DNA of 64,000 bases from Aporhodopirellula aestuarii (GTDB taxonomy: Bacteria > Planctomycetota > Planctomycetia > Pirellulales > Pirellulaceae): contig NZ_JAMQBK010000029.1 in the NCBI RefSeq assembly GCF_023701485.1, positions 124,001 through 188,000 on the forward strand, written 5' to 3'. Below the pieces are notes generated by a model. It had not been told where the DNA came from and did no database searches. It worked only from the letters and a program-made list of their open reading frames with translations. The position numbers were made by a program, and so were the translations under genes. This document shows, piece after piece, positions 21,296 through 40,294 of this stretch. The stretch's first letter is position 1, and each line of letters opens with the position of its first letter.

Positions 21296-22927
21296 CTAGT
21301 TGGCTGCGGTCGCAAGCTGTGCTTTCCAGCCTGCTCTGAACGTTGCGAGTAATTCTGCGACCAGCTCCGGGTGATCGTCGGCGATATTGACCGTTTCGGA
21401 CGGATCGGATTGATGGTCGTAAAGTTCGATGTCGATCGGATCGGCCAACGCGTTGCGGTAGTCTTGCCACACCACGAGACGGTACCGGTCGGTCCGCATT
21501 GTATAACCCATCAGATGCGTCTCGAATAAGTCACGATCCCACTTATCACCCTGTTGCTCGATGATGCGTTCTTCAACCTCTTGGATCAGCGGGCCGAAGA
21601 ACGTTTCACGCATCCCGGCGGACAACGGGTTGGCTGCCCATTCACGCAGCGCCGGGTTGGGGAACTGACTGAACGCGGCTGTTTTCCAAGGCAGGTTGGG
21701 ATCGCGAATGAGGGGATGGAAGCTGTGCCCTTCTAAGTGCTCGGGTTGAGCGATGCCGGCCAGCTCGCAAAGCGTTGGGTACATGTCAACCAACTCCACC
21801 AAGGCATCTGTCTTGGATCCGCGAACAGATTCGGGCATATCGGGCGTCCAGATCATGAGGGGAACCCGCGTGGCGATATCGTAATTGGTCGCCTTGCCCC
21901 AGATGCCCATGTCGCCGAGGTGCCAACCGTGGTCGCCCCACACGATGATGATCGTGTTCTCACGGACGCCCGCTTCGTCCAGTGCATCAATCATCCTCCC
22001 GAGCTGTGCGTCAACGTAGCTCACGCATGCCAGGTATGCGTGCTTGAGCGTGCGTGACATTTCCTCGTCGATTGGGCCATGTTTAGGGATGCCATCTCGG
22101 ACGCGTAGTTCAAACGATGGATGCAGCCCCATGGCGGCACCGTTCTCCGGAGGCGTGGTGTGTTCCGCCAGCGGGATGTCGTTGGGATCGTAGAGGTCCC
22201 AATAACGTTTCGGTGCAATGAATTCGAGGTGCGGCTTCTTCATGCCGAGCCCGAGAAAGAACGGTTTGTCCTGGTCAGACACCAGTTCTTTCAACGTCGC
22301 GATCGCGGAGTCGGTGTTGTATCCGTCTTCATAGGTGTTGTCGGGGACATCGGCGGCTTCGTACGCGGGACCATGGATCAGTCCGCTACCCGCGATCGCT
22401 GTGCCGTATTTAGCGTCGAGGACTTCTTTGTTCGTACGCCAGATCGCTTGGTTCTCTGGCAATGCGTAACCGCCTGCTGTGTTGATCCGTTTGACCTTGG
22501 GCCGGGTCGGTTTGCGGCTCCAAGACTTGTCTTGATCAGCAGTCGGATCGTTATGAAAAATCTTCCCGCTATAGACGGCTTCGTACCCGTTGGCGATGAA
22601 GTGTTGCGGGAGTGTGACGATGTCCGGGTTGAGTTCACGGAAGTAGGCATAGTTCTCGACCACGCCGATCGTGTCCGGTCGTGCTCCGGTCATCAGGCTG
22701 GCACGCGATGGGCTGCAGATCGCTTGTTGGCAATACGCTCGATTGAACAACAAACCTTGTGATGCCAACTTGTCGAGGTTGGGGGTGATCGCAATTTCGG
22801 AACCGTAGCACCCGAGTTCGGGGCGGAGGTCATCGATGGCGAGGAACAGAATATTGGGGCGATCGGCGGCTTGGCTAGTTGCCGAGAGAAGGGGCAGCAG
22901 CAGGCAGAGTGTGGGGATGATTTTCAT
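21296..22927 (-). CDS. Sulfatase, iduronate-2-sulfatase-like (secreted)
   Basis: A type I (formylglycine) sulfatase of about 543 residues. The ATG at 22927 starts a signal peptide (MKIIPTLCLLLPLLSATSQA) and has CCAGGA upstream; a TTG 36 nt earlier is less likely. Metal-binding Asp residues appear in LAIDDLRPELGCYG, and the modified Cys lies in CSPSRASLMTG near residue 71. GDHGWHLGDMGIWGK carries the second metal site. The DDLRPELGCYG opening is typical of the iduronate-2-sulfatase-like subgroup. It is the last gene of the minus-strand galactan run, so its likely substrate is a sulfate group on an algal galactan fragment in the periplasm. An anaerobic-type or FGE maturase is not in the window. 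Confidence 0.92.
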   Translation of the reverse strand: MKIIPTLCLLLPLLSATSQAADRPNILFLAIDDLRPELGCYGSEIAITPNLDKLASQGLLFNRAYCQQAICSPSRASLMTGARPDTIGVVENYAYFRELNPDIVTLPQHFIANGYEAVYSGKIFHNDPTADQDKSWSRKPTRPKVKRINTAGGYALPENQAIWRTNKEVLDAKYGTAIAGSGLIHGPAYEAADVPDNTYEDGYNTDSAIATLKELVSDQDKPFFLGLGMKKPHLEFIAPKRYWDLYDPNDIPLAEHTTPPENGAAMGLHPSFELRVRDGIPKHGPIDEEMSRTLKHAYLACVSYVDAQLGRMIDALDEAGVRENTIIIVWGDHGWHLGDMGIWGKATNYDIATRVPLMIWTPDMPESVRGSKTDALVELVDMYPTLCELAGIAQPEHLEGHSFHPLIRDPNLPWKTAAFSQFPNPALREWAANPLSAGMRETFFGPLIQEVEERIIEQQGDKWDRDLFETHLMGYTMRTDRYRLVVWQDYRNALADPIDIELYDHQSDPSETVNIADDHPELVAELLATFRAGWKAQLATAAN

Positions 22928-23032
22928 CAGCAGGAATCCTGGGAACGTCTTCGCGGATTTCAAAAGGAATCTGTCGGAGTGTGCAAACCACGTAGCCGAG
23001 AGACTGACCTACGTGGTGAGTTGTGTGTTGGG

Positions 23033-24766
23033 TTACTTTGCCCAGTACGCTTTCTTTTCCAAGCCCGATGCGATGCCGTCTTGGTTGGTGTCGATCTCCT
23101 GAAAAATCGCTTCCACCTTTTCCTGATTCCAGGTCCAGCCGTTCTTGTCCCACTTGGCTTTTTCCAAGCCGATGAAGTGTTCGAGTGTGCTGTCACCGCG
23201 TTTGAGTTTGATTCCCGACGACGTCACTTGAGGGGCTTCGACGACCGGCTCGGCGATGTCGCTGTCGGTTACGTGAGTGGCAGGGCGAAGCGGTGGTGCG
23301 CCGACTTTGACTTCAAATGTTTGGTCAAAGTGAGGCATTTCCGCTTCATGCCATTTGTCGCGAGCAACGGGTGAATCGAAGAACAAAGGCTCCGTGTGCG
23401 TTTGACTCCAATTCTCGGCGGCAGCGATCAACTCTTCGAGTCGTTCGGGATTGCTGGCAGCCAGGTCGTGCGTTTCTCCCAAGTCCTCGGTGATGTTGAA
23501 CAATCGCCAGGGGTGGTTGGCATAGCGGACCGCTTTCCAGTCACCGCGTCGTGCACTGACGTCGCTATAACCATCGCGATGCCGCATCGCAAAGATCACG
23601 TCGTTGGGTCGTGGGTTGGTGCCGCTGGTGATGTCCGCAAGGATGTTTTTTCCATCCAGCTTCTTGCCGCTTGGAATGTCGGCCCCGGCGAGTGCGGCGA
23701 AGGTGGGATAGAAGTCGAGCGCCGTAACGGGATAGTCGAACCTCTGGGCGGGGATCTTGTTCGGCCAGTGGAAGAACATCGGTACGCGAAAACCACCTTC
23801 CCAGGTGTCACCTTTCACTCCACGAAACGGCGCGTTGGAAGATCCGAAGACAGATTTACCGCCGTTGTCGCTCAGGAAAATCACCAAGGTGTTTTCGAAC
23901 TGGCCTTGTTCTTTCAACGTTTGCGTGATGAGACCGACGCCCCGGTCGACTGCCGTTACCATGCCAGCGACGACGCGTCGTTTGCGGTTTTTGATGTGCG
24001 AGTTTGCCGCCAGGTCCTCCTCTTTGGCTTCCATCGGCGAATGGGGCGCGTTGTATGCGAGGTACAGAAAGAACGGGCTGTCTTTCGTTGAGGCTTCGTT
24101 GATGAAACGGACTGCTTGTTTGGACAGCGCGTCGGTCAGGTATTCGTCTTCCGTGGTTTGTTTACCGTTATGCTCGAGCGGCAGTAGGTAGTCGTTGATG
24201 TTTGTCTTTCCTGAACGTTTCTGTCTTTCGTAAGCGGCGGAATACTGTTCGGGAAAATAGTTGTGGCCGCCGCCGAGAAACCCGTAGAAGTCATCAAAAC
24301 CACGGTGGTTGGGATGATAATCGGCTTCTTCCCCGAGGTGCCACTTGCCGATCGCCCCGGTGGTGTAGCCCGCAGTTTGAAGAACGGTGCTGATGATGGT
24401 TTCGTCTTTGGGGATACCGAGTTTGTTGTAGTCGTCCATGCCGGCATGCACTGGCGGCAAGTTGTATTGGCCGCCGAACGCATGCGGGTATCGTCCCGAC
24501 ATCATGCCCATGCGACTGGGGCCACAGAACGGGTGCGCCACGTAACCAGAGGTGCAAATCGTGCCCGCTTTGGCGAGCGAATCCAAATTTGGAGTGCGAA
24601 TGTCGGGGGCGCCGCTGAAGCCGACATCGGAATAACCCAAGTCGTCACACATGATGACCAAGATATTTGGGCACGATGATGTTTCAGCAGCGTCGCATGA
24701 AGCCGGCAGCGCCGACAAGCCAGCAAAAAGTATCAAGAGTAAGGTTGGAAGCCATGCGGTTTTCAT
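23033..24766 (-). CDS. Sulfatase with C-terminal EF-hand tail (secreted)
   Basis: This 577-residue protein has a signal peptide (MKTAWLPTLLLILFAGLSAL), the metal-binding VIMCDDLGYSDVGFSG, and the formylglycine site HPFCGPSRMGMMSGR near residue 80. LSDNGG gives the second metal site. It is therefore an arylsulfatase-type enzyme. The last ~52 residues form a distinct module ending in a canonical calcium loop (DTNQDGIASGLE). That module is nearly repeated at the C-terminus of the GH16 protein at 28592-29785. It lies 84 bp downstream of the GH127 gene and is probably co-transcribed. The context suggests it desulfates carrageenan-like oligosaccharides; subfamily and position specificity cannot be read by eye. 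Confidence 0.93.
   Translation of the reverse strand: MKTAWLPTLLLILFAGLSALPASCDAAETSSCPNILVIMCDDLGYSDVGFSGAPDIRTPNLDSLAKAGTICTSGYVAHPFCGPSRMGMMSGRYPHAFGGQYNLPPVHAGMDDYNKLGIPKDETIISTVLQTAGYTTGAIGKWHLGEEADYHPNHRGFDDFYGFLGGGHNYFPEQYSAAYERQKRSGKTNINDYLLPLEHNGKQTTEDEYLTDALSKQAVRFINEASTKDSPFFLYLAYNAPHSPMEAKEEDLAANSHIKNRKRRVVAGMVTAVDRGVGLITQTLKEQGQFENTLVIFLSDNGGKSVFGSSNAPFRGVKGDTWEGGFRVPMFFHWPNKIPAQRFDYPVTALDFYPTFAALAGADIPSGKKLDGKNILADITSGTNPRPNDVIFAMRHRDGYSDVSARRGDWKAVRYANHPWRLFNITEDLGETHDLAASNPERLEELIAAAENWSQTHTEPLFFDSPVARDKWHEAEMPHFDQTFEVKVGAPPLRPATHVTDSDIAEPVVEAPQVTSSGIKLKRGDSTLEHFIGLEKAKWDKNGWTWNQEKVEAIFQEIDTNQDGIASGLEKKAYWAK
23036..23191 (-). other. C-terminal EF-hand module, copy B (in sulfatase)
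   Basis: Encodes FIGLEKAKWDKNGWTWNQ followed by DTNQDGIASGLE. It is the second copy of the module found at the end of the GH16 enzyme; the catalytic domains in front of the two copies are unrelated. Confidence 0.85.
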
Positions 24767-24850
24767 TGGATGCGCCGTTCTTTCGTCGGATGGTATGGGG
24801 AATGCGGCAGTCCGCCGACGTGTTTCGGAGTGGATGCGATGTTCGGTTCG

Positions 24851-26803
24851 CTACTTCCAAACGACTGGCAGCCAGACTGTCATTTCGGCGTTGCCTCGGT
24901 TGGACCACGCGTAATAAGGGACGAACCGAACCGAGGTGTTCTTCCATTCAGGTTTGCCGATCGGTTCGTACATCGACGTTCGTTCGTCTGACTTGACGTG
25001 AACGTTCCCGGTCAGCGTCGTGATGCCGCCCAAGACATCGGGGTCGTTTTGTTTTTCGAGTTCAATGTCACTGGGGACATAAACATCCAGCGTGCGGGTG
25101 CCCTCGGGCAAGTCGGGTGACTCGAGGCAGTACACCAGCGGGCCGACTTTGATCGCGGTCTGGTTTCGAGTTTCTTCGATGAAGGGATGGCCTTTCATCA
25201 GTTTGACGTCCATCGGCAATTTGAGATCGATGGTGTCGCCAGGCTTCCACGCACGATGGATCCTTGCGAAGGTTCCCGGACTGATTTCCTCGCCCGAGGC
25301 GTCGCCGTTGACGAGCAGTGTGCATTGGTCGGCCCATCCCGGGATTCGGATCAAGATTTCAAACGGTTCTTGCTTGCACGCATCGATCGTGATCTTGACG
25401 TTACCCTCCCATGGGTAGCCGGAATCCTGGTGGAGTTTGATTTCGGAGCCATCGGTAAGCTTTGTCGCTAGTCGATTGCCGCCAAATAAGTTCACTGCCA
25501 CCCCGTTGCTGGTCAGGCTATAGGCCCAGTTGGATATTTTGGCGATGGTGCGAACCAGGTTGGGCGGGCAACAGAAACACTCGATGTACGGTTCGCGGTT
25601 GGCTGATTCGGTGCAGTCGCGGTTGTCCTGGTACTCACGTTGTCCATGGTTATAACGCAGCGGATTGGCGTAGAAGTAGTGTTTGCCATCCGCACTGATG
25701 CCGACCAGTGCGCTGTTGTATGCGACCAGTTCCATGATGTCGGCATGTCGCGAATCGCCTTTGATGCCGAGCATTCGGAAATTGAACATCGCGTTGGCGA
25801 TGTTGGCACAGGTCTCGTTGTATGCCGTCGCATTGGGCATCAGGTACGCGTCCAGGAACCCCTCTTCGATCTTGTCGCGGCGAGTTGACGCCCCGAAGTG
25901 AGCCTGCCCGACCGCGCCGGTGACATACATTTTTTTGTTGGCGACGTTGTCCCACAACCGATCGAGTGCATCGATCAGTGCCTGCTCGCCGGTTTCGGCA
26001 TACACGTCTGCGGCGCCGGCGTAGTAATACAATGCCAACACGGCGTGGCCGACCGCTTCGGTTTCTTCACGGAGCGGCACCCTTTCTTGGACCATGTCGC
26101 CGATCGGGTAACCTTCGGTGCTGGAATCTTCGACGACTGGGGACTTGCCCCGGTTGTTAATGAAGATCTCCGCAAGCTCTAAATAGCGTTTGTCCTTAGT
26201 GGTGCGGTAAAGTTCGGTCAGACCCATGATTTGAGACTGATTGAAACCGAATCGCGACAGCTCCTTGGGTTGTGGTTGGAATAGCTTGTAAAGCAGATTT
26301 GCGTTCTTAATCGCGGTATCTAAGAAGTTCGTCTTCCCCGTGACGCGGTGATGCACGCACGCGGTGGTGTACAGGTGACCGCAGTTGTACATCTCGTGGT
26401 ACTTGCGGTTGGAAAAGTGGGCGGTGCCATCAATTTGGATGTTGGTATGCAGGTAGCCGTCGTCTTCTTGTGCTTTGGCAATGACCTCAATGATCTCGTC
26501 GAGTTCATCGATGATCTTGGCGTCTTGATTGACAGCGTAGATGTAGACGGCGGCTTCCATCCATTTGAAAAAGTCGCCATCGTGCCAGGCAAAACCTTGG
26601 TGTTTGCCTTTTTTGAGGCCGGCGGCGATCTTGAAATTATTGTAACCATGGCCGATGTCGCCTTTGAGTAACGTGCCCATGTGGGGCACCATCACTTCTT
26701 CGCACTGTTTGAATTTCTCGGCCCAGAAGCCATCTGTCCATCGGCAATCGCCGATGCCGATGCTTTTGAGTTTGACGTGTGGGCTATTGGTTGTGTCGAT
26801 CAT
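24851..26803 (-). CDS. GH127-family glycosidase (candidate 3,6-anhydro-D-galactosidase)
   Basis: This 650-residue protein of the DUF1680/GH127 family opens with DCRWTDGFWAEKF and has KYHEMYNCGHLYTTA. Near residue 410, ECFCCPPN carries the paired Cys residues, one the catalytic nucleophile and one a zinc ligand with the nearby Glu in characterised GH127 enzymes. There is no signal peptide, so it should act in the cytoplasm on imported fragments. GH127 is best known for beta-L-arabinofuranosidase. However, in marine carrageenan loci GH127/GH129 members release 3,6-anhydro-D-galactose from desulfated oligosaccharides. Its position between a sugar porter and sulfatases, with the anhydrogalactose pathway nearby, favours that role (inference). 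Confidence 0.88.
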   Translation of the reverse strand: MIDTTNSPHVKLKSIGIGDCRWTDGFWAEKFKQCEEVMVPHMGTLLKGDIGHGYNNFKIAAGLKKGKHQGFAWHDGDFFKWMEAAVYIYAVNQDAKIIDELDEIIEVIAKAQEDDGYLHTNIQIDGTAHFSNRKYHEMYNCGHLYTTACVHHRVTGKTNFLDTAIKNANLLYKLFQPQPKELSRFGFNQSQIMGLTELYRTTKDKRYLELAEIFINNRGKSPVVEDSSTEGYPIGDMVQERVPLREETEAVGHAVLALYYYAGAADVYAETGEQALIDALDRLWDNVANKKMYVTGAVGQAHFGASTRRDKIEEGFLDAYLMPNATAYNETCANIANAMFNFRMLGIKGDSRHADIMELVAYNSALVGISADGKHYFYANPLRYNHGQREYQDNRDCTESANREPYIECFCCPPNLVRTIAKISNWAYSLTSNGVAVNLFGGNRLATKLTDGSEIKLHQDSGYPWEGNVKITIDACKQEPFEILIRIPGWADQCTLLVNGDASGEEISPGTFARIHRAWKPGDTIDLKLPMDVKLMKGHPFIEETRNQTAIKVGPLVYCLESPDLPEGTRTLDVYVPSDIELEKQNDPDVLGGITTLTGNVHVKSDERTSMYEPIGKPEWKNTSVRFVPYYAWSNRGNAEMTVWLPVVWK

Positions 26804-26899: not shown

Positions 26900-28513
26900 T
26901 TAAGTTTTCGCCTGTAGTGCTGTTTGAATTTCCTCGATGCTCATGTTTTTGGTTTCTTTCAGTGTGAAGAACAGGATTACCAATCCGACAAAAACGGTAC
27001 CGGCATAGAACAGGAAAACCGCGGTCATTCCCATGCTTTCGAGTTGTCGCGGGAAGAAAAACTGAACCAGCCAACTGGTTAAGCTGGTGACGATCGTGAA
27101 AAACGGGATCGCGATCCCGCGCACCGAGACCGGGAAAATTTCCGAGAACAGAACCCACATCACGGGGCCGACCGAAAAGTGAAATGCGGCGATGAAACTC
27201 AGGATCCCGATCAACACGAGCTTGGCGTTAATCTGGATGGAGGCATCCAAAATGGTGCCCATGTGTTTGTTGGCATCTTCTATCCCCAATGCTCCACGAA
27301 TCGCCTGTTTGAATTCAATGTCGCTGGTGTGCTCGACGCCGGCCAGGGAATTCAGGCGGTCGACGTTGTTTAGAGCGGTTCGCTCTGATTCCTCGAGTGA
27401 AGCGTCTTTGATTTCCGCGGCTTCCATGGCGGCGATCGTTTGTTCGCTGACGACGTAGCGAGCGTTCTTGAACGCGTACGAGCAAATGCCCAAGCTCGCG
27501 ATGATCCAAACCATCCCCCAAATGATTAGCGGTCGACGGCCGAGTCGATCCACCAGCAGCAATCCCATCACGGTGAAGACGATGCTGGTCAAGCCAACCC
27601 ATATGGCCTGCACGAAGGCGGCGTCGGACCCGATTCCGAGTTGTTTGAAAATGGTTTGGGCGTAGAACAGGACGGCGTTGATCCCTGTCGATTGCTGGGC
27701 GATGGCGATGGTCATGGCGATCACAAACGTCAATCGCATCGGCTTGCCAAAGATCACTCGTAGCTGGGCGACGATCGAATGGTCTTCGGTGCTCTTGTGG
27801 ATGCTCTCGCGAACTTCGTCCACGTGGGCTTCGATCTCGTCTTCGGGCATCAGTTTCCGCAATGTGTTCTTGGCGTCTTCATCACGATGTTGGAAAACGA
27901 ACCACGAGGGGCTTTCTGGAATGGTCAGCAGCAAGCCAAACCAGATGACGGCAAACGGAATTTCGGAACCCAACATCCAACGCCACGTGCTCGTGTCGAG
28001 TCCCATGTTGACTACCCACGGAGCACCGGAGGTGGCCCAGTGATTAATCAGATAGTTGACGAAGTAGGCTCCTGAGAGCCCGATCACGATGTTGATTTGT
28101 GTCATCGAAACCAGTTTGCCACGTAGTTTGGGTGGCGCGATCTCGCCGATGTACATCGATGCTAACGAGATCGAACTGAACGCGAGTCCGCCCAGGAATC
28201 GAGCCGCAACGAGGGTCCAGTAACTGGGAGCCAGTGCCGAACAAATTGCCGAAATCAAATAGAGCACTGCGATCAATAGGATCGCTTTTTTGCGACCGAA
28301 CTGGTTGCAGATATATCCTGCAAACGGCAACGCGACCAACACGCCTAACGCCGGAGCACTGACGGCGGTTCCGAGCTGTTCAGGCGTCAGCGAGAATTCC
28401 GCGGTGATGTAGTCAATCGTTCCCGAGATGAGTGCCGCATCCAATCCAAACAGAAACCCTCCCATGGCGACGATCGTCGAATAGATCAAGGCGTTCGTCT
28501 TGTAAGATTTCAT
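26900..28513 (-). CDS. MFS sugar transporter (sugar porter family)
   Basis: This 537-residue membrane protein has about 12 hydrophobic segments. Sugar porter signatures include GFLFGLDAALISGTIDYI in helix 1, GRKKAILL after helix 2, R-G motifs (APPKLRGKL), IPESPSWFV before the central loop, QQSTGINAVLFYAQ in helix 7 and DRLGRRPLI. The long soluble insertion after helix 10 (about residues 360-420) is unusual for the family. It sits between GH127 and GH16 genes in the same run, so it probably imports galactan-derived mono- or disaccharides across the inner membrane. No SusC/SusD pair is present, as expected for a planctomycete. Confidence 0.93.
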   Translation of the reverse strand: MKSYKTNALIYSTIVAMGGFLFGLDAALISGTIDYITAEFSLTPEQLGTAVSAPALGVLVALPFAGYICNQFGRKKAILLIAVLYLISAICSALAPSYWTLVAARFLGGLAFSSISLASMYIGEIAPPKLRGKLVSMTQINIVIGLSGAYFVNYLINHWATSGAPWVVNMGLDTSTWRWMLGSEIPFAVIWFGLLLTIPESPSWFVFQHRDEDAKNTLRKLMPEDEIEAHVDEVRESIHKSTEDHSIVAQLRVIFGKPMRLTFVIAMTIAIAQQSTGINAVLFYAQTIFKQLGIGSDAAFVQAIWVGLTSIVFTVMGLLLVDRLGRRPLIIWGMVWIIASLGICSYAFKNARYVVSEQTIAAMEAAEIKDASLEESERTALNNVDRLNSLAGVEHTSDIEFKQAIRGALGIEDANKHMGTILDASIQINAKLVLIGILSFIAAFHFSVGPVMWVLFSEIFPVSVRGIAIPFFTIVTSLTSWLVQFFFPRQLESMGMTAVFLFYAGTVFVGLVILFFTLKETKNMSIEEIQTALQAKT

Positions 28514-28591: not shown

Positions 28592-29785
28592 TTACTTCGC
28601 CGAGGCCTTTTTATTGGTAAACCATTGTTGGCGTTCGATGCCTGACGCGATGCCGTCGTTGTTGGTATCCATTTCCGCGAAGTTGGCTTCTACCTTGGCT
28701 TGATTCCATGGCCAGCCATTTTTTTCCCACTTGGCTTTTTCCATGGCGATGAATTGGTCTCGGTTCATTCCGTTACCTGTAGCTGTCTGTTTCGGCTTAT
28801 TGCCCATCGCAGGTTTCGCATTGGTGACCGGCCCTTTGGATTGCTTTGCCGGCGTGGATGATTCTGCGACGACGTCGTTGTTCCGCCAAACCCGGACGTA
28901 GTCGACCAACATCTCGGTCGGGAATCCTTCTTGAGTGGTCTTTTCAAGAACAGCGACACGTTGCCCATTCTTGTAAGCCTCAAAAGGATGACGCAGCCCC
29001 AGCGATAACGTCACGTGCATCGGGAGATGCCAGTACAGATTGGGTTTACGGGCTACCTCTTTTCCATCGATGTACCAGATGACGAAGTCTTTATTGTTTT
29101 CCACGCCGTAGACATGAAAGTCTTCACGTGGATCAAACGGGGCGTGGTACTCGTTCTTGTTCGTTTCTGGGTGGGTGCCAGGACGGATCCACTGTCGTTG
29201 GCCGTCACGGATCAAGACCGCGTGCAGGTTACAGTCAATCACGTCGACACCGTTATATTGTTTGGTTTCTTTGTCGAACTCGCACTGTTGAAGTTCGATG
29301 ATGTCGATTTCGGAATAGGCTACGGTCTCGCCATCACGTGCTAGATAGCGGTTTTCAGGGCCTTTGCTGTGCAGCCAGAACGCCGGTGATGCACCAGGAA
29401 ACAAGTCGCAGCCTTTGACGCGGGCTTCAAAGTAACCGTAGACCGCCGTGGAGTACTGACGGGCGATGCCGGACTTGTAGGCGAGTTTCGTGCTTCCGCG
29501 TTGGTGATCTTCTTGCACCATTTGCAAGTGCAGCGATCCGTCTTGCTGAAACGCATTTTCGGGTTCCCAGCTCCACGTTCCCCAATCTTCGGTGTCGATG
29601 TTCCACTTCTTCGTGTCGATCTGACCGCTATCAAATTCGTCGGATTGATCCGCAACGAATTCCCAGTCACCGGGGCTCGTTTGAAAGATTGCTCCTACCG
29701 GAGACGGTTCAGTCGCGTTGGATGGCAACGTCATTGACAACAACAGGGCTGGCAAGATTGCCAAATAGGAAGCGACCAGTTTCAT
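28592..29785 (-). CDS. GH16 kappa-carrageenase-like enzyme with EF-hand tail
   Basis: This 397-residue secreted protein (signal peptide MKLVASYLAILPALLLSM) has the GH16 beta-bulge catalytic motif YSEIDIIELQQ near residues 158-168, whose two Glu residues act as nucleophile and acid/base. Several blocks (WGTWSWEPENA, FPGASPAFWLHS, YHAPFDPREDFHVYGV, NLYWHLPMHVTLSLGLR, FPTEMLVDYVRVW) line up closely with the Pseudoalteromonas kappa-carrageenase as I remember it. Hydrolysis of beta-1,4 linkages in kappa-carrageenan is therefore the best prediction. The last ~57 residues (341-397) form the EF-hand module shared with the sulfatase at 23033-24766. The spacing to the upstream GH16 gene is 35 bp, consistent with one operon. 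Confidence 0.9.
   Translation of the reverse strand: MKLVASYLAILPALLLSMTLPSNATEPSPVGAIFQTSPGDWEFVADQSDEFDSGQIDTKKWNIDTEDWGTWSWEPENAFQQDGSLHLQMVQEDHQRGSTKLAYKSGIARQYSTAVYGYFEARVKGCDLFPGASPAFWLHSKGPENRYLARDGETVAYSEIDIIELQQCEFDKETKQYNGVDVIDCNLHAVLIRDGQRQWIRPGTHPETNKNEYHAPFDPREDFHVYGVENNKDFVIWYIDGKEVARKPNLYWHLPMHVTLSLGLRHPFEAYKNGQRVAVLEKTTQEGFPTEMLVDYVRVWRNNDVVAESSTPAKQSKGPVTNAKPAMGNKPKQTATGNGMNRDQFIAMEKAKWEKNGWPWNQAKVEANFAEMDTNNDGIASGIERQQWFTNKKASAK
28595..28765 (-). other. C-terminal EF-hand module, copy A (in GH16)
   Basis: Encodes FIAMEKAKWEKNGWPWNQ followed by the calcium loop DTNNDGIASGIE. It shares most positions with the module at 23036-23191, at both the protein and DNA levels. The loop has Asp1, Asn3, Asp5, Ser9 and Glu12 of a canonical EF-hand. 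Confidence 0.85.
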
Positions 29786-29820: not shown

Positions 29821-31278
29821 TCAGAGCGACGTTTCGAAACGCTCGATCGTGATGTCATCGAGGTAGATGAGGTTACTGCCGCTTGGGACATCCCTGCGGT
29901 TCAAAGAGATTTTCATTCGGTCTGAATCGGTGGAGCCCCTTTCCAACGAGAAGCGATGTGTCACAGTGACCCACTCGCCTTTTTCGCACGCGGCTAGGTC
30001 GATCGTGAGAAGTTCGACCGCCGGCGCGGTAAACGAAATCTGTAGCTTTTTAGCAGTGCTCTTTGGATCGATCCAAACTTGGGTTGTGAGTTCATAATCG
30101 CCTGCCGGGAGATCGACGCTTCCTTCGGGGCCGACCACCGACGCGACTTCGGATTGCATCTCACCGTCCGTTGTGAATCGGAGGCTCCGTGTTCCTGATG
30201 CAAACGTCTCATGACGAACGATCTCAAAGTGTTTTGAGGACTCTTGGTCGATACGCCAGAATTGTTGGTAGCGGTTGTTAGCAGAACTTTCAGGAACGAG
30301 GTCAAGCGGTCGTTCGTTCTCTTGGAACAGATAGGGACCTTCGAATCCGAAGAAGGCGCGATCGAGGAGATTGGTTTGTGGTTTCTGCCAGACTCGTACG
30401 TATTCAATTTCGAAATCGGAAGGTAGTTCTTCTTGGGTCGGTAAACCGAGCCAGACGAAAATTTCGGAATCTAGCCAAATTTCCAGCGGGTTGGTCAGCA
30501 CCCAGTGCTTGCCTTCTTTTTCTTGCGTCGTTTCGTAAACCAGTTCGCCATCAATAAAGCACTTCAAGTAATCTTCGCCCCACTCACAACCAAAGACGTG
30601 AAAGTCATCGGCCAAGCGATACGGGAGCTTTTTCTTGTAGCCGAATTTGCGAGTCGGTCGTTCGGCGGGCGGTTGCCAATCATGCACGCTCATTTTGGTG
30701 CTGTCTTCCTCGATGTCATTCCCTGCGTTGGGGTTGCCCATTTGTTCGTAGACATCGAGTTCGGACTCGTAGCCGATTGCCCAAAACGCGGCGGTCATCG
30801 CAGAATCACCTGGCTTGGATTTGACTTCCATGTAGCCGTTTAGAAAACGTTTGCGGCTGATCACGCCGCCGGTGGTGACCGGGACGTCTTTGCCCTCGTG
30901 GGTGCGGTAGGTGTTTCCTTCATGTCCTTCGTCCTTGGCGAAATCAAAGTCGGGTTCCCATTGCGACCGGATTTTGAGTTTGCCGTCTTCGACGAAAACG
31001 TTGTGAGGAGCGAATTGGGAGGGGGCGCGACCTTTCCAAATGTAATACTCGCCATTCTGGCCTTCAACAAACCATTTGGATTGGTCGATCTCGTCGCCTT
31101 CAAACTCGTCACTGATGTCTTCGCGAAGGATCCAGTTGCCTGAGTTGGTTGGGTCCGAGGCGGGGTACACCGTAGTCGAACGAGTGTCTTGAGCCTGCGT
31201 GTTGGAGGAGGCGATCAACAAGAGACTGATGCCGAGGATGCTCCGCACTGCAGAAATTTCTGAGCTGGCGATGCTCAT
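29821..31278 (-). CDS. GH16-family galactanase with C-terminal carbohydrate-binding-like domain
   Basis: This 485-residue secreted protein has AAGGAAA seven bases before its ATG and a signal-like segment (SILGISLLLIASSNTQAQ). The GH16 catalytic motif is SELDVYEQMG near residue 173. The N-terminal ~320 residues (WILREDISDEFEG to EYVRVWQKP) resemble beta-agarases, porphyranases and the furcellaran-active group. The C-terminal ~140 residues form a beta-rich domain (GTRSLRFTTDGE to NLIYLDDITIERFE) like CBM4/22-type modules. It should cut algal galactan outside the cytoplasm. Exact specificity (agar, porphyran, furcellaran or carrageenan) is not readable; the surrounding genes favour a carrageenan/furcellaran substrate. 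Confidence 0.88.
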   Translation of the reverse strand: MSIASSEISAVRSILGISLLLIASSNTQAQDTRSTTVYPASDPTNSGNWILREDISDEFEGDEIDQSKWFVEGQNGEYYIWKGRAPSQFAPHNVFVEDGKLKIRSQWEPDFDFAKDEGHEGNTYRTHEGKDVPVTTGGVISRKRFLNGYMEVKSKPGDSAMTAAFWAIGYESELDVYEQMGNPNAGNDIEEDSTKMSVHDWQPPAERPTRKFGYKKKLPYRLADDFHVFGCEWGEDYLKCFIDGELVYETTQEKEGKHWVLTNPLEIWLDSEIFVWLGLPTQEELPSDFEIEYVRVWQKPQTNLLDRAFFGFEGPYLFQENERPLDLVPESSANNRYQQFWRIDQESSKHFEIVRHETFASGTRSLRFTTDGEMQSEVASVVGPEGSVDLPAGDYELTTQVWIDPKSTAKKLQISFTAPAVELLTIDLAACEKGEWVTVTHRFSLERGSTDSDRMKISLNRRDVPSGSNLIYLDDITIERFETSL

Positions 31279-32754: not shown

Positions 32755-33079
32755 TTTAGAACCTCTGAGTACTGATTACGTGTTTCGCCTCGATCGCAGA
32801 GGCTGCGTGATGTGGGAACCGGGCGGAATTACCCAGCTCATCACATCCTATTGTAATACAATATAGAAATCGCAGAGTCAATGGGCTGGAAGTCGCTGAT
32901 AAGCGATTTCTTATGAAATGTCTGGCACCGTTAAGCGGATGATGGATTGGATCGTATCCGGCATGGGTGCCTTTTTGGGCAACGGCGTTGTTGCTTGCCG
33001 ATTTCGACGCCGCCCGTTCTCACGTCGCGGCCGACGTGGACGGAGGCATTTCGCCGGGCATAAACACGCCGAGACCTCG
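32755..33079. other. Intergenic region with operon operator
   Basis: This 325-bp region contains the 15-bp palindrome at 32849-32863 and presumably the promoter of the galactan operon. I see no gene in it; an 87-residue plus-strand open frame overlapping the kinase gene has no protein-like features. Confidence 0.5.
32849..32863. promoter_or_regulatory. FadR/GntR-type operator, perfect palindrome
   Basis: TATTGTAATACAATA is a perfect 7+1+7 inverted repeat. Its core TTGTAATACAA fits the FadR-subfamily consensus TNGTNNNACNA. It lies about 95 bp upstream of the first sulfatase of the galactan operon and is AT-rich enough to overlap a promoter. Confidence 0.65.
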
Positions 33080-34168
33080 CTATCGAATGACGCGTCCCGA
33101 GGCGGATCCGCCCATCAGCGATTCCACTTCACCACGCGTCGAATAGTTGAAGTCACCTTTGATGGAATGCTTCAAGCATGACGCGGCCACCGCAAAGCTG
33201 ACTGCCGTTTGCGGCTCGCTCAGTTCTTCCGTGATAAGGCTGAAAATGAGCCCACCGGCAAATGCATCTCCGCCGCCGACTCGATCGACAATGTTCTTGA
33301 TCTGATAAGGCTGGTAGTTGCCGTTGGGGTCCAGCGGCGCGAAGACGGGTTGGTCCGCAGCGACGTCGTAGAGCATGGCGCCCCAATTGTTGTGGGTCGC
33401 CGAAAGGCTTTCGCGTAACGTGATCGCGACTTTACTGATATTGGGAAACTGCTTAATGACCTGGCGCGCTACCTCGGGATAGCGGGACGTGTCTAGGGAT
33501 CCTGAGTGCACGTCAGTGTCGCCGGCTTGGATTCCGAGCACATCATGGCAGTCTTCTTCATTCGCGATGACCACGTCGACGAAGGGTAGGATTTCCTTCA
33601 TGGTTTCTTGAGCAAGTTCTCGTGATGATTTCGGCGGCGCCCATTTCCACAGCTTACCCCGGAAGTTGAGGTCGATTGAAACGGTCGCGCCGGCGTATTT
33701 GGCTTTCTGGGCCGCGATGCGGGTGGCTTCCGCGGCATTCTTGGACAGGGCAGGGGTGATGCCACTGAGATGCAGCCACTGGGCACCCTTCAAGATTGAG
33801 GCCCAGTCGTACCGGTCCGCTGGAGTGATCGAGATCGCTGAGTCGTCGCGATCATAAATCACGTTACTGGGACGCTGGTTCGCACCCGTTTCAAGAAAAT
33901 AGAGCCCGAGACGGCCCTCGTCGGTTCGCAGCACATACTGTGTGTCGATCCCAACGGCGCGAACCGCATCCATCGTCGCGTCAGCCAACGCGTGCTTGGG
34001 AAGCGCCGTTACGTAGCGAGCGGTCCCGCCGAAGTTACAGATCGATGCCGCCACGCTGGCTTCGGCCCCGGCATAGGTGACTTCCAAGTCGCGGGTCTGG
34101 CGAAGACGAAGGTTTCCGGGGGCGGCCAGGCGTCCCATGATTTCGCCAAAAGTCACTACCGTTTTCAT
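33080..34168 (-). CDS. kdgK: PfkB-family 2-keto-3-deoxy-sugar-acid kinase
   Basis: This 362-residue ribokinase-fold enzyme has the N-terminal FGEIMGRLAAPGNLRL, the KDG-kinase-like YAGAEASVAASICNFG, and the catalytic anion-hole motif GGGDAFAGG near residue 295 with the base Asp. It phosphorylates 2-keto-3-deoxygluconate or its galacto epimer at O6, feeding the aldolase encoded upstream. In characterised carrageenan and agar pathways the kinase acts on 2-keto-3-deoxygalactonate (DauC-like role), which the context favours. It is cytoplasmic. It lies about 280 bp after the aldolase gene, separated by a 60-bp inverted-repeat element. Confidence 0.9.
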   Translation of the reverse strand: MKTVVTFGEIMGRLAAPGNLRLRQTRDLEVTYAGAEASVAASICNFGGTARYVTALPKHALADATMDAVRAVGIDTQYVLRTDEGRLGLYFLETGANQRPSNVIYDRDDSAISITPADRYDWASILKGAQWLHLSGITPALSKNAAEATRIAAQKAKYAGATVSIDLNFRGKLWKWAPPKSSRELAQETMKEILPFVDVVIANEEDCHDVLGIQAGDTDVHSGSLDTSRYPEVARQVIKQFPNISKVAITLRESLSATHNNWGAMLYDVAADQPVFAPLDPNGNYQPYQIKNIVDRVGGGDAFAGGLIFSLITEELSEPQTAVSFAVAASCLKHSIKGDFNYSTRGEVESLMGGSASGRVIR

Positions 34169-35221: not shown

Positions 35222-35235
35222 AAGGATTTCAAATG

Positions 35236-35295: not shown

Positions 35296-35402
35296 AAAAA
35301 AGCACTTAAACGATCAACGTCCCGAGCAAACGGCCACATTGCTTCGTCTCCGGCGAATAGATTCACACCCTCTTGAGTGAGATCAATTCAACCGGAGCGT
35401 GT

Positions 35403-36842
35403 TCACGGTCTGACCAGAACAGAAACGCGTTTGAGCGTGAGATATTCTTGCAAGCTATACCGTGAACAGTCTTTGCCGACACCGCTTTGCTTTAACCCGC
35501 CGTGGGGCAAGTGAACCGCATAGTGAACTTCATTGACGCAGACGCTGCCGGCATCAATTTCGGCCGCGGCGCGTAGGCCACGTGTGATGTTCGTCGTGTA
35601 AACATATGCGGCCAAACCGTATTCGGTGTCATTGGCCAGTGCGATTTCGTCGTCGTCATCATTGAACGGGATCACCGGCAAAATCGGTCCGAAGATCTCG
35701 TCACAGGAGAGCTCCATGTCGCGGCGAACATCGCGGAGGATTGTCGGTTCGAGGTAGAAACCCCGCATTTTCGGTTCGGGAGCTTTGCCTCCACATACGA
35801 CGGACGCGCCGTTCTCTTGAGCGGATTTAATAAGCGACAGCATGCGGTCGCGTGCCCGTGCGGTGAGGACTGGCCCCATCCGGCGTCCTTCGCCACGCCC
35901 GGCACCGAGCGTGATTCCGGCGGTGCGATTCGCGGCAGCGGTGATGAAATCTTCGTAGACGGATTCGTGGACAAAGCAACGATTAGGGGACACGCACACT
36001 TGTCCCGAATTGGCGAATTTGAGATCAACGATGCTGTTGGCGGCCGCGACCACATCGGCGTCGTCGTAGACGAGCACGGGTGCATTGCCTCCCAGTTCGA
36101 CCGAAAAATGTTTGACGTTCGTGCAGGCGGATTTCATCGCTCCAACACCGGCGCGGGTTGATCCGATCATCGTAAACATCGCCGGGATGTCGCTCTCCAG
36201 AAGCGGCGTGGTCACGTCGTAATCGGTGCCACTGATGACATTGATCACGCCCTTGGGGATGCCTGCGTCGACAAGCAATTCGGCGCAACGCAAGGACGCC
36301 AGGGGAGTCAGTTGGGACGGTTTGATGATCGCGGTGCATCCCGATGCCAATACCGGGCCTAACTTGTATCCGAGATTGAGCAGCGGGAAATTCCAAGCCA
36401 GATATCCGACGACCACACCCAGCGGTTGACGCAGCGTGTAGTTCAAAAATCGACCATCGGGGTCGGTGATCACCTGTTGGTCGATCCGCGCCGCTTCCTC
36501 GCAAAAGAAACGCAGGCACGTCGTTAACATGCCGAAATCGTATTCGGCGTTATCGATCGGTTTGCCCGTTTCGGTGATCAGTAAATCGATGATCTCGTCC
36601 CGGTTCTGCTCAAGCAGTTCGGCATATCTTGAGATGATCGGTTGACGCTCAGACAAGGGCATCCGCGACCAAGTTTGGAAAGCGTCGCGAGCGGATGTGA
36701 GGGCGAGTTGGACGGAAGCGTCGTCAGCCTCCGGTACCTCGGCAGTCACTTCGCCGGTTGCCGGATTCGTGACTGAAAATGTCTTGTCGGTTGTGACCAA
36801 TTCGCCATTGATCAACATTGAAAAATTTTTGTCCGGCACCAC
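35403..36842 (-). CDS. Aldehyde dehydrogenase (candidate 3,6-anhydrogalactose dehydrogenase)
   Basis: This 479-residue NAD(P)-dependent aldehyde dehydrogenase has the general base in FSVELGGNAP near residue 250 and the catalytic Cys in NSGQVCVSPNR near 283. The cofactor loop is MIGSTRAGVGA. The family covers succinate-semialdehyde, lactaldehyde and 2-oxoglutarate-semialdehyde dehydrogenases. It directly abuts the cycloisomerase stop (no gap). In carrageenan and agar degradation an enzyme of this family oxidises 3,6-anhydrogalactose to 3,6-anhydrogalactonate, which the adjacent cycloisomerase uses. I therefore infer that role (DauA-like). It is cytoplasmic. Confidence 0.9.
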   Translation of the reverse strand: MVPDKNFSMLINGELVTTDKTFSVTNPATGEVTAEVPEADDASVQLALTSARDAFQTWSRMPLSERQPIISRYAELLEQNRDEIIDLLITETGKPIDNAEYDFGMLTTCLRFFCEEAARIDQQVITDPDGRFLNYTLRQPLGVVVGYLAWNFPLLNLGYKLGPVLASGCTAIIKPSQLTPLASLRCAELLVDAGIPKGVINVISGTDYDVTTPLLESDIPAMFTMIGSTRAGVGAMKSACTNVKHFSVELGGNAPVLVYDDADVVAAANSIVDLKFANSGQVCVSPNRCFVHESVYEDFITAAANRTAGITLGAGRGEGRRMGPVLTARARDRMLSLIKSAQENGASVVCGGKAPEPKMRGFYLEPTILRDVRRDMELSCDEIFGPILPVIPFNDDDDEIALANDTEYGLAAYVYTTNITRGLRAAAEIDAGSVCVNEVHYAVHLPHGGLKQSGVGKDCSRYSLQEYLTLKRVSVLVRP

Positions 36843-37997
36843 TCACGCCTTGAGTTCGGTTTGTTGAACGGTAAATGATTTCATCTTCTCTTGGTTGACG
36901 ACCACGCCGAGTCCGGGACCGGTCGGTACTTGAGCGATTCCGTTCTGGACAACCACGGGGATGTCGAACAACTCGTCACGCAGTGCGTTGGGTGTGCGGT
37001 CAAATTCGAGCAGAGGCGAGGCCACTTCTTTGCGGCCCGGTTCCCGATATCCAGAGGCGATGAAGTGAGTCGCGGCGGCTAAGTTGAGCATGGTACCCCA
37101 GCAGTGAGGCACAACGTTGATTCCCATCGACGAGGCCAGGTTGCGGATCTTGAGGGCTTCGGAAGGTCCTCCGCAGTAGGCCAGGTCTGGTTGCGCGATC
37201 TGAACGCCGCCGGTCGAGAGCAGACGTTGAAACCCATAACGCGTTTGTTCGCATTCACCGGTCGCGATCGGAATATCGAGTTTGTCTTGCAGTTGTCGAA
37301 ATTGTCCTTCGAACTCGGGTGACAATGGTTCTTCGAACCAACTGAAGTCATTCTCTTCGAGCACTCGACCGATCTGAATCGCCTCGGGCAAATCGAAGGC
37401 GTGATTGGAGTCCGCCATCATTTGCATATTTGGCAGCGCATCGCGAATCGATTCGATTTGACGAATATCAAACGGCAGATTCTTGCCGACTTTGATTTTA
37501 AGGGCTTGGAAGCCTTGCTGTTGGTAGCTGCGAGCCTCGTCGACGATCGATGCGATCAAATCAGACTCAGGCATGTCTTTGAAATACATGCCCGTGGCAT
37601 AGCATGGGATTTGATCGACGTACCGACCGCCCATCAATTCAGAAACCGACTGCCCCAACGCTTTGCCGCGAAGGTCCCATAAGGCCATGTCGATCCCCGA
37701 CATCGCGCCCATCATCACACCGCCTCGTGCGAAGTCGAGCGAAGAACGCCACATCAGGTGCCAGAGGACGTCCGTCGCCATTGCGTTTTGGCCGAGCAAT
37801 CGCGGTGCATAAAAACTGTTGATCGCCGCTTGATAAACTTCCGAAGGCCCGTAGCTCTCGCCCCAGCCCGTCGTTCCGTCTTCGGCAATGATCTCGACCC
37901 ACAACGTGTTGCGAGTGTTGTAGTACCACTGAGAGAACCCGAAGGGGACATCCAGGTGGTCTCGAAGGTGGTGGGTTCGGATGCAGCGAATATTCAT
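36843..37997 (-). CDS. Enolase-superfamily cycloisomerase (candidate 3,6-anhydrogalactonate cycloisomerase)
   Basis: This 384-residue mandelate racemase/muconate lactonizing-type enzyme was started at the ATG at 37997, where MNIRCIRTHHLRDHLDVPF matches the usual start; a longer frame begins at 38117. Catalytic landmarks are ALKIKVG (KxK lysines), MADSNHAFD, FEEP and GECEQTRYG (three metal ligands), and PHCWGT (His). The overall sequence, including WGESYGP and LLEFDRTPN, resembles galactarolactone cycloisomerase rather than galactonate dehydratase. In 3,6-anhydrogalactose catabolism a member of this superfamily opens anhydrogalactonate to 2-keto-3-deoxygalactonate. The neighbouring dehydrogenase, kinase and aldolase fit that step (DauB-like role). 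Confidence 0.88.
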   Translation of the reverse strand: MNIRCIRTHHLRDHLDVPFGFSQWYYNTRNTLWVEIIAEDGTTGWGESYGPSEVYQAAINSFYAPRLLGQNAMATDVLWHLMWRSSLDFARGGVMMGAMSGIDMALWDLRGKALGQSVSELMGGRYVDQIPCYATGMYFKDMPESDLIASIVDEARSYQQQGFQALKIKVGKNLPFDIRQIESIRDALPNMQMMADSNHAFDLPEAIQIGRVLEENDFSWFEEPLSPEFEGQFRQLQDKLDIPIATGECEQTRYGFQRLLSTGGVQIAQPDLAYCGGPSEALKIRNLASSMGINVVPHCWGTMLNLAAATHFIASGYREPGRKEVASPLLEFDRTPNALRDELFDIPVVVQNGIAQVPTGPGLGVVVNQEKMKSFTVQQTELKA

Positions 37998-38305
37998 GCG
38001 TGGCGACTCGTTGATGCTGGGACTTTTCGTCTGCGTTTCGCCACGTGGGAGAACACGTCTAGACGGTGTCGCCATCGGCAGCGGCGATGTCGCGGGGTAC
38101 CATTCGTGATTTTCCATGGTCTGAATCGTCTACCTCGAGGGGTGTTGTCCGTTTTTACTGCGTCACGATTGAACCACTCTGCAAGGACCGAAGCGAATCG
38201 GGGATGAGCGGACGAACGCTTATTTCATTTGGTCTGGCAGCGAGGTGAAGCTGCGTCCGAGCGTCTCGCGAGCATCCGTACCCCATTCTTGCAGGGCTTG
38301 TGGTA

Positions 38306-38316
38306 TTGTAATATAA
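38306..38316. promoter_or_regulatory. Candidate FadR/GntR-type operator in divergent promoter
   Basis: TTGTAATATAA, within TATTGTAATATAAATA, differs by one base from the perfect core at 32851-32861. It lies 35 bp before the regulator ATG and upstream of the divergent cycloisomerase operon, a position suited to both autoregulation and pathway control. Confidence 0.6.
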
Positions 38317-38350
38317 ATAGACTTCGTTAATCAATAGGGTGAGATAGAAA

Positions 38351-39112: not shown

Positions 39113-39580
39113 CGGGCAGTCCAGCGGCTCGCTGCGGTTCGTGATGGCGTATCAAGGCACGTGAAAAAGCCGATTCACGGGGTGACCGATGAGAAATTGC
39201 CAGCCATTCTGTTTGGCTGCTCGGTTCTTGTCTGCGTGGCGTGACGAGCGAGAATCAACTCTGGTTAGCGAATGTTGAGATCGATTCGGGGCCTGTGGTC
39301 GGTTACTTTTGTTTTATGTCTATAGATTGAGCCGCTGGCTACTACTATGATGGGGGGCAAGTGGTGCTGAATGAAAACTATGTTGGGCAGCTCCCGAAGG
39401 CGGGTTCTTCGCTGTTGAATGAGAATGATCGCAAATCCAGGTAATTGCCTATCGATTGTGCGTTCGATCTGCCCGATGTCGGAAATCCTTTCACTGGCAG
39501 AGTGGGACCGAATTCACATGATCGGCCTCCTCAGGGTTCCTTAACTGTTAAACATGCTCGCGTTTTGATAGCCTAGCTTT
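39113..39580. other. Intergenic region between the two GntR regulators
   Basis: This 468-bp stretch has no intact gene. Around 39340-39442 a short frame reads YYYDGGQVVLNENYVGQL and ends at a stop. It looks like the tail of an RHS/YD-repeat protein and may be a gene remnant. Confidence 0.4.
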
Positions 39581-40294
39581 ATGGTACACCTACGATCTCG
39601 CCGGAATCTTTGTGGCCAAGTCGTTCACGATTTGGGATGTCAAATATTGGCGGGAGCGGTGAAGCCGGGGGATCCGTTACCCCAAGAGGCTGTGCTTTGT
39701 GACACCATGGGCGTCAGCCGCACGGTCATTCGCGAAGCGATTAAGTCGTTAGCGGCCAAGGGGTTGGTCGATTCGCGAGCGAAGCGCGGGACGATCGTTT
39801 TGCCCACGCGGTCATGGAATTACCTCGACCCCGAGGTGCTCGATTGGCAGTCGCAAGCCGACACGGGCGGTTCACAGCTTTTCCATCTGACGGAGTTTCG
39901 CCAAACGATCGAACCTGCTGCCGCGGCACTGGCGGCCGAGCGGGCCAGTGAGGAGCAGTTGCAGGCGATTCGAAACGCGTTTGAACGCATGGAGAGTAAC
40001 ACTGACAGCGTTGAAGAGTTCTTGGACGCTGACCTTCAGTTCCACACGGAAATTTTGCATGCGACCGGGAATCTGTTTTTCTCTCCGGTTGCGAATGTGA
40101 TCCACGTTTCACTGGCGTCGAGTTTGCGGGTGACCAACCGCCAAGCTTCCGACAACCGCACCTCGATACCGCCACACCGCATCGTCATGGAAGCGATTTG
40201 TGCCCGCGATCCCGATGCGGCTCGAGAAGCGATGCGTTCACTTCTCGACGATGCGACTGCTCGTATCAAAAAGGCGACTCAAGTTTCGTCGTGA
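39581..40294 (+). CDS. FadR-subfamily GntR regulator 2 (FCD domain)
   Basis: This 237-residue paralogue of the regulator at 38351 shares runs such as MGVSRTVIREAIKSLAAKG and SRAKRGTIV, including the recognition helix, so both may bind the same operator type. The FCD domain (LDADLQFHTEILHATGN, PPHRIVMEAI) is more diverged, which could mean a different effector. It appears to be a tandem duplicate that was separated by later insertion of sequence. No close match to the TTGTAATACAA site is visible in front of this gene. Confidence 0.9.
   Translation: MVHLRSRRNLCGQVVHDLGCQILAGAVKPGDPLPQEAVLCDTMGVSRTVIREAIKSLAAKGLVDSRAKRGTIVLPTRSWNYLDPEVLDWQSQADTGGSQLFHLTEFRQTIEPAAAALAAERASEEQLQAIRNAFERMESNTDSVEEFLDADLQFHTEILHATGNLFFSPVANVIHVSLASSLRVTNRQASDNRTSIPPHRIVMEAICARDPDAAREAMRSLLDDATARIKKATQVSS

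Follow-up and report, generated by a model that had tools for sequence, protein, structure and literature searches.

A putative carrageenan utilisation locus in a Rhodopirellula-type planctomycete, with a predicted operator and a proposed PfkB-family kinase at the DauC step

Do the galactanase, sulfatase and sugar-acid genes that lie side by side in the planctomycete Aporhodopirellula aestuarii form one system, and which polysaccharide would it serve? The window, that is, the whole 64,000-nucleotide stretch analysed (contig NZ_JAMQBK010000029.1, positions 124,001 to 188,000), carries 13 genes of this kind at 21296-40294 according to open reading frame (ORF) calls and domain scans, 11 on the minus strand and two encoding divergently oriented regulators. 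An earlier interpretation made from the letters alone (the sequence-only reading) took them for a carrageenan-type galactan locus with a complete anhydrogalactose route, and enzyme subfamilies and gene order support that view. With a probability of roughly 0.86, we read the region as a locus with which a Rhodopirellula-type planctomycete would use kappa- and beta/kappa-carrageenan and bring the products down to central metabolism, with the genes in two regulated operons. Families, gene order, conservation and motif positions were computed, and from them we infer substrates, localisation, the order of steps, operon limits and regulation. The genes are as follows (GH, glycoside hydrolase; KDG, 2-keto-3-deoxygluconate; KDGal, 2-keto-3-deoxygalactonate; KDPG and KDPGal, their phosphates).

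21296-22963, minus strand: S1 sulfatase S1a, S1_7-like; best solved relative 6HHM, 317 bits; CSPSR motif
23033-24766, minus strand: S1_19-type sulfatase S1b, endo-4S kappa/iota-carrageenan type, with a C-terminal EF-hand-like module; relatives 9HH3 and 6B0J; CGPSR motif
24851-26803, minus strand: GH127 enzyme; PF07944; 61% identical to a GH127 of a Flammeovirga dau locus; no signal peptide by eye
26900-28513, minus strand: major facilitator superfamily (MFS) sugar porter; TIGR00879 299.9 bits, cut-off 237.8
28592-29785, minus strand: GH16_17 kappa-carrageenase GH16a, with a C-terminal EF-hand-like module; NF041449 526.7 bits, cut-off 350; 1DYP 231 bits; EIDIIE catalytic motif
29821-31278, minus strand: GH16_13-like beta/kappa-carrageenase of furcellaranase type, GH16b; best solved relative 9IJC, 196 bits
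31354-32754, minus strand: S1_19B-type exo-4S-kappa-carrageenan sulfatase S1c; 6PRM 600 bits; CGPSR motif
33080-34168, minus strand: PfkB-family KDG/KDGal kinase; PF00294
34447-35232, minus strand: KDPG/KDPGal aldolase, Eda superfamily, putative DauD function; PF01081 194 bits; TIGR01182 203.4 bits, cut-off 156.05
35403-36842, minus strand: aldehyde dehydrogenase, putative DauA (3,6-anhydro-D-galactose dehydrogenase); PF00171
36843-38117, minus strand: MR/MLE cycloisomerase, putative DauB (3,6-anhydro-D-galactonate cycloisomerase); 5OLC 349 bits
38351-39112, plus strand: GntR/FCD regulator 1 (FadR subfamily), FCD1; PF07729, PF00392
39581-40294, plus strand: GntR/FCD regulator 2, FCD2; 62% identical to regulator 1

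The three sulfatases (S1 domain matches), the two GH16 enzymes, one of them kappa-carrageenase-like, GH127, the sugar porter, the aldehyde dehydrogenase, the cycloisomerase and the two FadR-type regulators had all been named in the sequence-only reading, and each was recovered with domain or family models.

We propose that these proteins act in the following order. Kappa-carrageenan chains would be cut by the exported GH16_17 enzyme; 4-sulfate would be taken off galactose by the S1_7-like sulfatase and by the two S1_19 sulfatases, one an endo and the other an exo type; and the GH16_13-like enzyme would cut partly desulfated stretches. The MFS porter would carry short neutral oligosaccharides over the inner membrane, and a cytoplasmic GH127, which has no visible export signal, would release 3,6-anhydro-D-galactose. 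DauA would oxidise this sugar, DauB would open the product to KDGal, the PfkB-family kinase, in place of a DgoK-type DauC, would phosphorylate KDGal, and the Eda-superfamily aldolase would give pyruvate and glyceraldehyde-3-phosphate. The genes would be read as two head-to-tail operons, dauB-dauA-aldolase-kinase and S1_19B to S1_7, with the FadR-type regulators acting via TTGTATTACAA. The kind of pathway is already known; this is its planctomycete form with three additions, namely the kinase, the operator and the module.

Is the grouping more than chance? Rhodopirellula rubra (L041, L080) has these genes too, in the same order, from the flanking porin gene BBP2 and S1a through prfB, and the kappa-carrageenase family is rare, occurring in 2 of 392 genomes of the phylum and, above the curated cut-off, in 17 of 241 Pirellulaceae genomes (the family genomes below). 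Because R. rubra keeps the order and the family is rare, we consider the grouping to be more than chance. The gene-order comparison with other Pirellulaceae that the sequence-only reading had proposed came out in its favour, with the order kept in relatives.

The anhydrogalactose route and its kinase

Which anhydrogalactonate would the cycloisomerase open? It scored 349 bits with Zobellia DauB (5OLC), its best relative, 294 bits with AtGCI (4GGB) and 127 bits with the L-anhydrogalactonate enzyme 5XD7. Seven active-site positions named in the accessible text of PMC5698469 are kept in 14 of 14 aligned sequences, and because AtGCI is among these they do not discriminate. The lid motif FSQW is present in 13 of the 14 and is missing only from AtGCI. 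Some first start codons in the locus are probably too early: the DauB alignment begins at Met41, so that its start is likely at 37997, and the aldolase resembles its family only from residue 57 on, next to the internal Met49, which puts its likely start at 35088.

A GTDB scan run with a single query, a design that picks up only close relatives, detected dauB among named genomes in R. rubra, R. sallentina SM41, strain CA13 and a Pirellulaceae metagenome-assembled genome (73-90% identity), and in five Alteromonadaceae (61-64%). Among the family genomes 11 of 241 have dauB (E <= 1e-130). A DauB search of a plasmid collection returned 77 records, all below 60% identity, of which two from Bacteroidota were useful. 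In a tree of 18 sequences the planctomycete and Alteromonadaceae proteins stood together, apart from Bacteroidota (support 96/97 and 100/99), which suggests transfer of DauB between planctomycetes and Alteromonadaceae, in either direction. The planctomycete group itself was weakly supported (54/29), and AtGCI formed a very long branch. The putative DauA is 62-65% identical to the product of the gene after dauB in three of the five Alteromonadaceae loci, and 38% identical to Flammeovirga DauA.

Which protein would phosphorylate KDGal? The sequence-only reading had named a KDG-type kinase and an aldolase; the PF01081 aldolase stood, and a kinase is present as well, although as a PfkB protein and not as a member of the usual DauC family. 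PF05035, the 2-keto-3-deoxygalactonokinase family of DauC, gave no match anywhere in the genome surveyed (9.07 Mb, 165 contigs), and the control genomes of E. coli and Caulobacter were positive. In Flammeovirga and in both Alteromonadaceae loci tested, the kinase is a PF05035 protein. The window kinase scored 212 bits with NF041332, a bifunctional KDG/KDGal kinase model with a cut-off of 440, and 448 bits with NF041633, whose cut-off is 700. We propose, as the first new element of this locus, that the PfkB kinase next to the aldolase functionally replaces a DgoK-type DauC.

The aldolase is 27% identical to Flammeovirga DauD, which is also a PF01081 protein. The dauB-dauA-aldolase-kinase set was found in 9 of the 11 dauB carriers of the family, contiguous in eight and pieced across two contigs in R. 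sallentina. As for the other two, one (G448) has the aldolase, with dauA and the kinase unmatched on a 12.6-kb contig, and one (G575) has dauB without dauA, aldolase or kinase within 20 kb. Aldolase matches (E 1e-25) occur in 107 of 241 family genomes, and the kinase lies beside the aldolase in 28 of the 30 best loci. Since the two are so widely paired, we read them as a native KDG/KDGal unit that was recruited to dauBA.

The residue at the position of T161 in E. coli Eda was also considered; according to the accessible text of PMC4915726, this threonine of KDPG aldolase corresponds to V154 in KDPGal aldolase. The locus aldolase has Leu there and the second PF01081 enzyme of the genome has Thr. 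Leu as locus-specific evidence for KDPGal was rejected, as it occurs in all 30 best-scoring Pirellulaceae loci (L085-L114, the window's included), with or without dauA and dauB.

PfkB kinases are catalytically diverse, which counts for an alternative in which KDGal is cleaved unphosphorylated and the kinase has another role. DauC has been reported lacking in some species, for which a non-phosphorylative route was raised in 2017 (PMC5698469, in the text available). We regard this route as unlikely here, because 9 of the 11 genomes have the kinase next to the aldolase in their dauB loci, because the kinase matches the haloarchaeal model NF041332, even if below its cut-off, and because the aldolase belongs to the Eda type, which acts on phospho-sugars, with TIGR01182 above cut-off. 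If the PfkB kinase does replace DauC, a 'missing' dauC and the dauCD 'gene loss' in a Rhodopirellula could be explained by a non-homologous kinase and a distant aldolase beside dauBA.

Carrageenases, sulfatases and a shared C-terminal module

Which carrageenan would be attacked? In the 1DYP alignment GH16a keeps the glycine equivalent to CgkA G258 (the offset was hand-counted from the number of a catalytic Glu), a residue that leaves room for galactose-4-sulfate according to the available part of PMC13168452. 9IJC, the best solved relative of GH16b, shares one sequence with 9INT, which the same text describes as a GH16_13 beta/kappa-carrageenase. The C-terminal part of GH16b (29824-30366, about 180 residues after the GH16 domain) had no Pfam match and is possibly a carbohydrate-binding domain.

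All three sulfatases keep the C-x-P-S-R active-site motif. The best matches of S1b are S1_19 sulfatases, 9HH3 (628 bits) and the iota-carrageenan sulfatase 6B0J (558 bits), and the best solved relative of S1c is the exo-4S-kappa-carrageenan sulfatase 6PRM. S1c would be the first gene of the second operon. 6HHM, the closest structure to S1a, is an S1_7 enzyme (PMC9096561, accessible text), and S1a shares 60% identity with one sulfatase of the Flammeovirga dau locus; we consider S1a a probable kappa-carrabiose 4-sulfatase, CgsB-like, whose true start is likely 12 codons further downstream. S1a was tried as a constant partner of kappa-carrageenase and rejected, since a homologue of at least 62% identity was found in only 12 of the 22 kappa-carrageenase stretches examined (own window included; some stretches stop at contig ends).

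The subfamily assignments, which the sequence-only reading had named as a check on itself, were thus favourable, with GH16_17 for GH16a, S1_19 relatives for S1b, 6PRM for S1c and 5OLC for the cycloisomerase. Because the GH16_17, GH16_13-like, S1_7-like and S1_19 matches fit together, the locus appears to be aimed at kappa- and beta/kappa- (furcellaran-type) carrageenan. Use of iota-carrageenan is uncertain, because no close relative of a putative 2-O-sulfatase was found: the best match here to L049:6764-8323, an Alteromonadaceae sulfatase that adjoins an S1_19A relative in its locus and is taken as a 2-O-sulfatase by position only, was 29% identical, and S1_17 and GH82 were not searched for. 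Planctomycetes have many uncharacterised sulfatases; in this genome, matches to the three sulfatases of the locus were counted at 233 places, although some of these places are parts of one gene.

A second kappa-carrageenase locus lies on another contig of the same genome (L067, contig C10), where the enzyme is without the module and is accompanied by a GH2, two weakly GH43-like proteins and a GntR/FCD regulator. The GH2 is 56% identical to that of the Flammeovirga locus, and R. rubra has a similar second locus (L066). This locus may supply the beta-galactosidase that is missing from the window, and its GH43-like pair could be another anhydrogalactosidase type.

What do the kappa-carrageenase and the endo-type sulfatase share? 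Each ends in a small module:

23036-23191, minus strand: C-terminal EF-hand-like module of S1b
28595-28768, minus strand: C-terminal EF-hand-like module of GH16a

Over the C-terminal 58 residues of GH16a and 52 of S1b, the two proteins share 58% identity, and the module was found at no third place in the genome. A profile of the module gave 26 matches in 20 of 241 family genomes, carried by 18 GH16_17 enzymes (one cut by a contig end), five S1_19 sulfatases, two GH16_13-type enzymes and one remnant with stops, so that three families of carrageenan enzymes account for 25 of the 26 copies. The two GH16_13-type carriers are in G433 and G434, where no GH16_17 above cut-off was found. Conversely, 17 of 23 kappa-carrageenase places above cut-off have the module, and one of the other six (G544, C473) is at a contig end. 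The remnant, in G545 (L148), is all that this genome keeps, in decayed form. In G307, of another family of the class (L065), a kappa-carrageenase has the module together with an internal TGA.

The module had no Pfam match at E 0.001. Its positions 28-56 match an EF-hand in the PDB (E 1.9e-5). A model from four sequences showed a helix followed by a helix-loop-helix (pLDDT 87), whereas a single-sequence model gave one long helix there. In a Foldseek search most of the first 50 matches were EF-hand proteins, none at E <= 0.001. We suggest that this is a new module, as yet without a Pfam model, that is tied to carrageenan enzymes in planctomycetes. A further reading, which we find rather doubtful, is that it is a carrageenan-dedicated assembly or docking domain that moves between GH16_17, GH16_13 and S1_19 and, with calcium, holds endo-carrageenase and endo-sulfatase together or at one place of the cell. 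If this were true, planctomycetes would have a small scaffold-free enzyme complex.

Predicted regulation and points against the carrageenan reading

How would the two operons be controlled? Two places upstream of genes were marked as operators:

32851-32861: predicted FCD-regulator operator TTGTATTACAA, a palindrome, 97 bp upstream of S1c
38306-38316: a further predicted operator with one mismatch, in the gap from DauB to FCD1 and 35 bp upstream of FCD1

The window has 4 matches to TTGTATTACAA with at most one mismatch (0.21 expected); as the S1c site counts once per strand, they amount to three places, of which the third falls inside GH127. The form of TTGTATTACAA agrees with the FadR-subfamily boxes TKGT/ACMA, with 3 nt between GT and AC, given in the accessible text of PMC4494728. 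Thirteen stretches from the 11 dauB genomes (231,082 bp) contain 12 exact TTGTANTACAA sites, and all 13 have a site with at most one mismatch; 19 control stretches around other kappa-carrageenase or GH127 genes (360,276 bp) contain one exact TTGTANTACAA, and five have a site with at most one mismatch. The stretches were hand-chosen, with L073, L074, L080, L081 and L082 in neither set. In three of these five, all from dauB genomes, a single exact TTGTANTACAA stands upstream of another GH127 gene, and counting all five as controls gives 4 exact sites in 24 stretches. We suggest, as a new prediction, that an operator palindrome stands at both operon heads, here and in relatives, and that the two FadR-type regulators control both operons via TTGTATTACAA. 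The predicted pair of regulator and operator might be put to use as a sensor for the anhydrogalactose pathway.

Several observations weigh against the carrageenan reading. Over the whole genome, the reversed control of the 11-mer TTGTANTACAA has as many exact sites as TTGTANTACAA itself, 4 each, and of the TTGTANTACAA sites just one, that in the window, stands at a promoter; a genome-wide regulon built on the operator was therefore rejected. The other sites lie inside an ORF on C91, between converging ORFs on C109 and inside a GH43-like gene of L067, and near the C91 and C109 sites no match to window or Flammeovirga proteins was found. At the threshold used, 9 of the 17 family genomes with a kappa-carrageenase above cut-off are without dauB. 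The aldolase-kinase pair alone is no proof of a role in anhydrogalactose, because it also occurs in Pirellulaceae without dauB. Finally, the best solved relative of GH127 is 5MQO (548 bits), which we take to be the aceric acid hydrolase BT1003, and the aceric acid hydrolase model NF049879 is the sole NCBIfam match of GH127 at E 0.001 (733.7 bits, rounded to 734).

Could GH127 and the kinase-aldolase pair then belong to the use of a different sugar, for example aceric acid or L-arabinofuranose, and adjoin the carrageenan genes by accident? Besides the NF049879 match, this is favoured by G591 and G594, in which a GH127 of 67-68% identity lies beside the aldolase-kinase pair without dauB, and in G591 also beside an alpha-L-fucosidase; these two genomes therefore argue against an exclusive carrageenan role of GH127. 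However, the NF049879 score is below the curated cut-off of 950, GH127 is 61% identical to a GH127 in the dau locus of Flammeovirga and 62% to one in that of Persicobacter, and of the 11 family genomes in which a GH127 reaches 64% identity or more, 9 have dauB too. We hold an accidental neighbourhood to be very unlikely, and GH127 is a probable alpha-1,3-(3,6-anhydro)-D-galactosidase, DagA-like. A second GH127 gene of the genome (L068, contig C57, 7254-9269), 65% identical to that of the window, adjoins genes for an FlhB-family protein and a short-chain dehydrogenase, and 158 bp before its ORF there is a weaker operator-like site, TTGTCGTACAA. That the locus serves agar or porphyran, that is, galactans with L-anhydrogalactose or L-galactose-6-sulfate, is highly improbable: the relatives of GH16b include the GH16_14 porphyranase 8EP4 (119 bits; PMC12316285, accessible text), but GH16b scores 196 bits with a beta/kappa-carrageenase, GH16a is above the kappa-carrageenase cut-off, S1c best matches a kappa-carrageenan sulfatase, and the cycloisomerase resembles DauB (349 bits) more than the L-enzyme (127 bits).

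All 35 window ORFs of at least 250 aa were scanned with Pfam, and no SusC/SusD or TonB-dependent receptor was found among them; the rest of the genome was not searched for SusC/SusD. The locus is flanked by the porins BBP2 (18575-20191) and Porin_O_P (42175-43716), which adjoin it in R. rubra too, and these are candidate routes through the outer membrane where no SusC/SusD is present. Outside the locus, at 5752-18143, are two large non-ribosomal peptide synthetase-type genes (condensation and AMP-binding domains; one with methyltransferase and thioesterase domains), with a pyridine-nucleotide-disulphide-type oxidoreductase at 11040-12809 between them, a possible natural-product cluster.

Comparison with known carrageenan systems

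Carrageenan loci of planctomycetes were already published in 2017, and the core of the carrageenan system over 30 species was given as dagA, dauA, dauB and dauD (Ficko-Blean 2017, PMC5698469, in the text available). The window has candidates for this set in GH127, dauA beside dauB, a dauB-type active site and a PF01081 dauD. The core features of Bacteroidota clades 1 and 2 that are unmatched here are a PF05035 dauC, SusC/SusD (in the window) and the AraC-family cgrA.

The system of Zobellia galactanivorans (ZGAL_3145-3159 and distal genes), as described in the accessible part of PMC5698469, shares with the window GH127, S1_19 and S1_7 sulfatases, an MFS permease, dauA, dauB and an aldolase. 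The sequence-only reading had pointed to the lack of SusC/SusD together with an MFS porter; this held among the window ORFs, but the layout is not unusual, since the main Zobellia cluster likewise has no SusCD inside and has an MFS permease. The two differ in the kinase (ZGAL_3154 is annotated as a 2-dehydro-3-deoxygalactonokinase, the window kinase is PfkB), in the regulators (two GntR/FCD proteins here, the AraC-type CgrA there) and in the kappa-carrageenase, which is inside the cluster here. The window is also without a GH129-like gene and without a sulfatase assigned to S1_17, a subfamily that was not searched for.

The locus on plasmid p1 of Flammeovirga kamogawensis (NZ_CP076130.1, 475926-511872), which holds two GH127, resembles the window in GH127 (60-61% identity), the S1_7-like (60%) and S1_19B-like (62%) sulfatases, dauB (43%), dauA (38%) and, distantly, the aldolase (27%). 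It differs in having its own SusC/SusD, a RhaT-type transporter, a DgoK-type kinase and a GH2 inside the locus.

Among planctomycetes, RsCgk of R. sallentina SM41 (Mar Drugs 2022, PMC9783963) is a characterised kappa-carrageenase, described as a single enzyme in the text available, which is without the words EF-hand and dockerin. SM41 has a locus that corresponds to the window (L042, L051), and RsCgk is one of the SM41 kappa-carrageenases. Rhodopirellula sp. SWK7 (Gobet et al. 2018, PMC6262041) likewise has carrageenan genes including dauA and dauB. In the accessible text only dauAB are reported for SWK7 and gene loss is suggested, whereas in the window the aldolase and kinase genes directly follow dauA, an arrangement that offers an alternative to gene loss.

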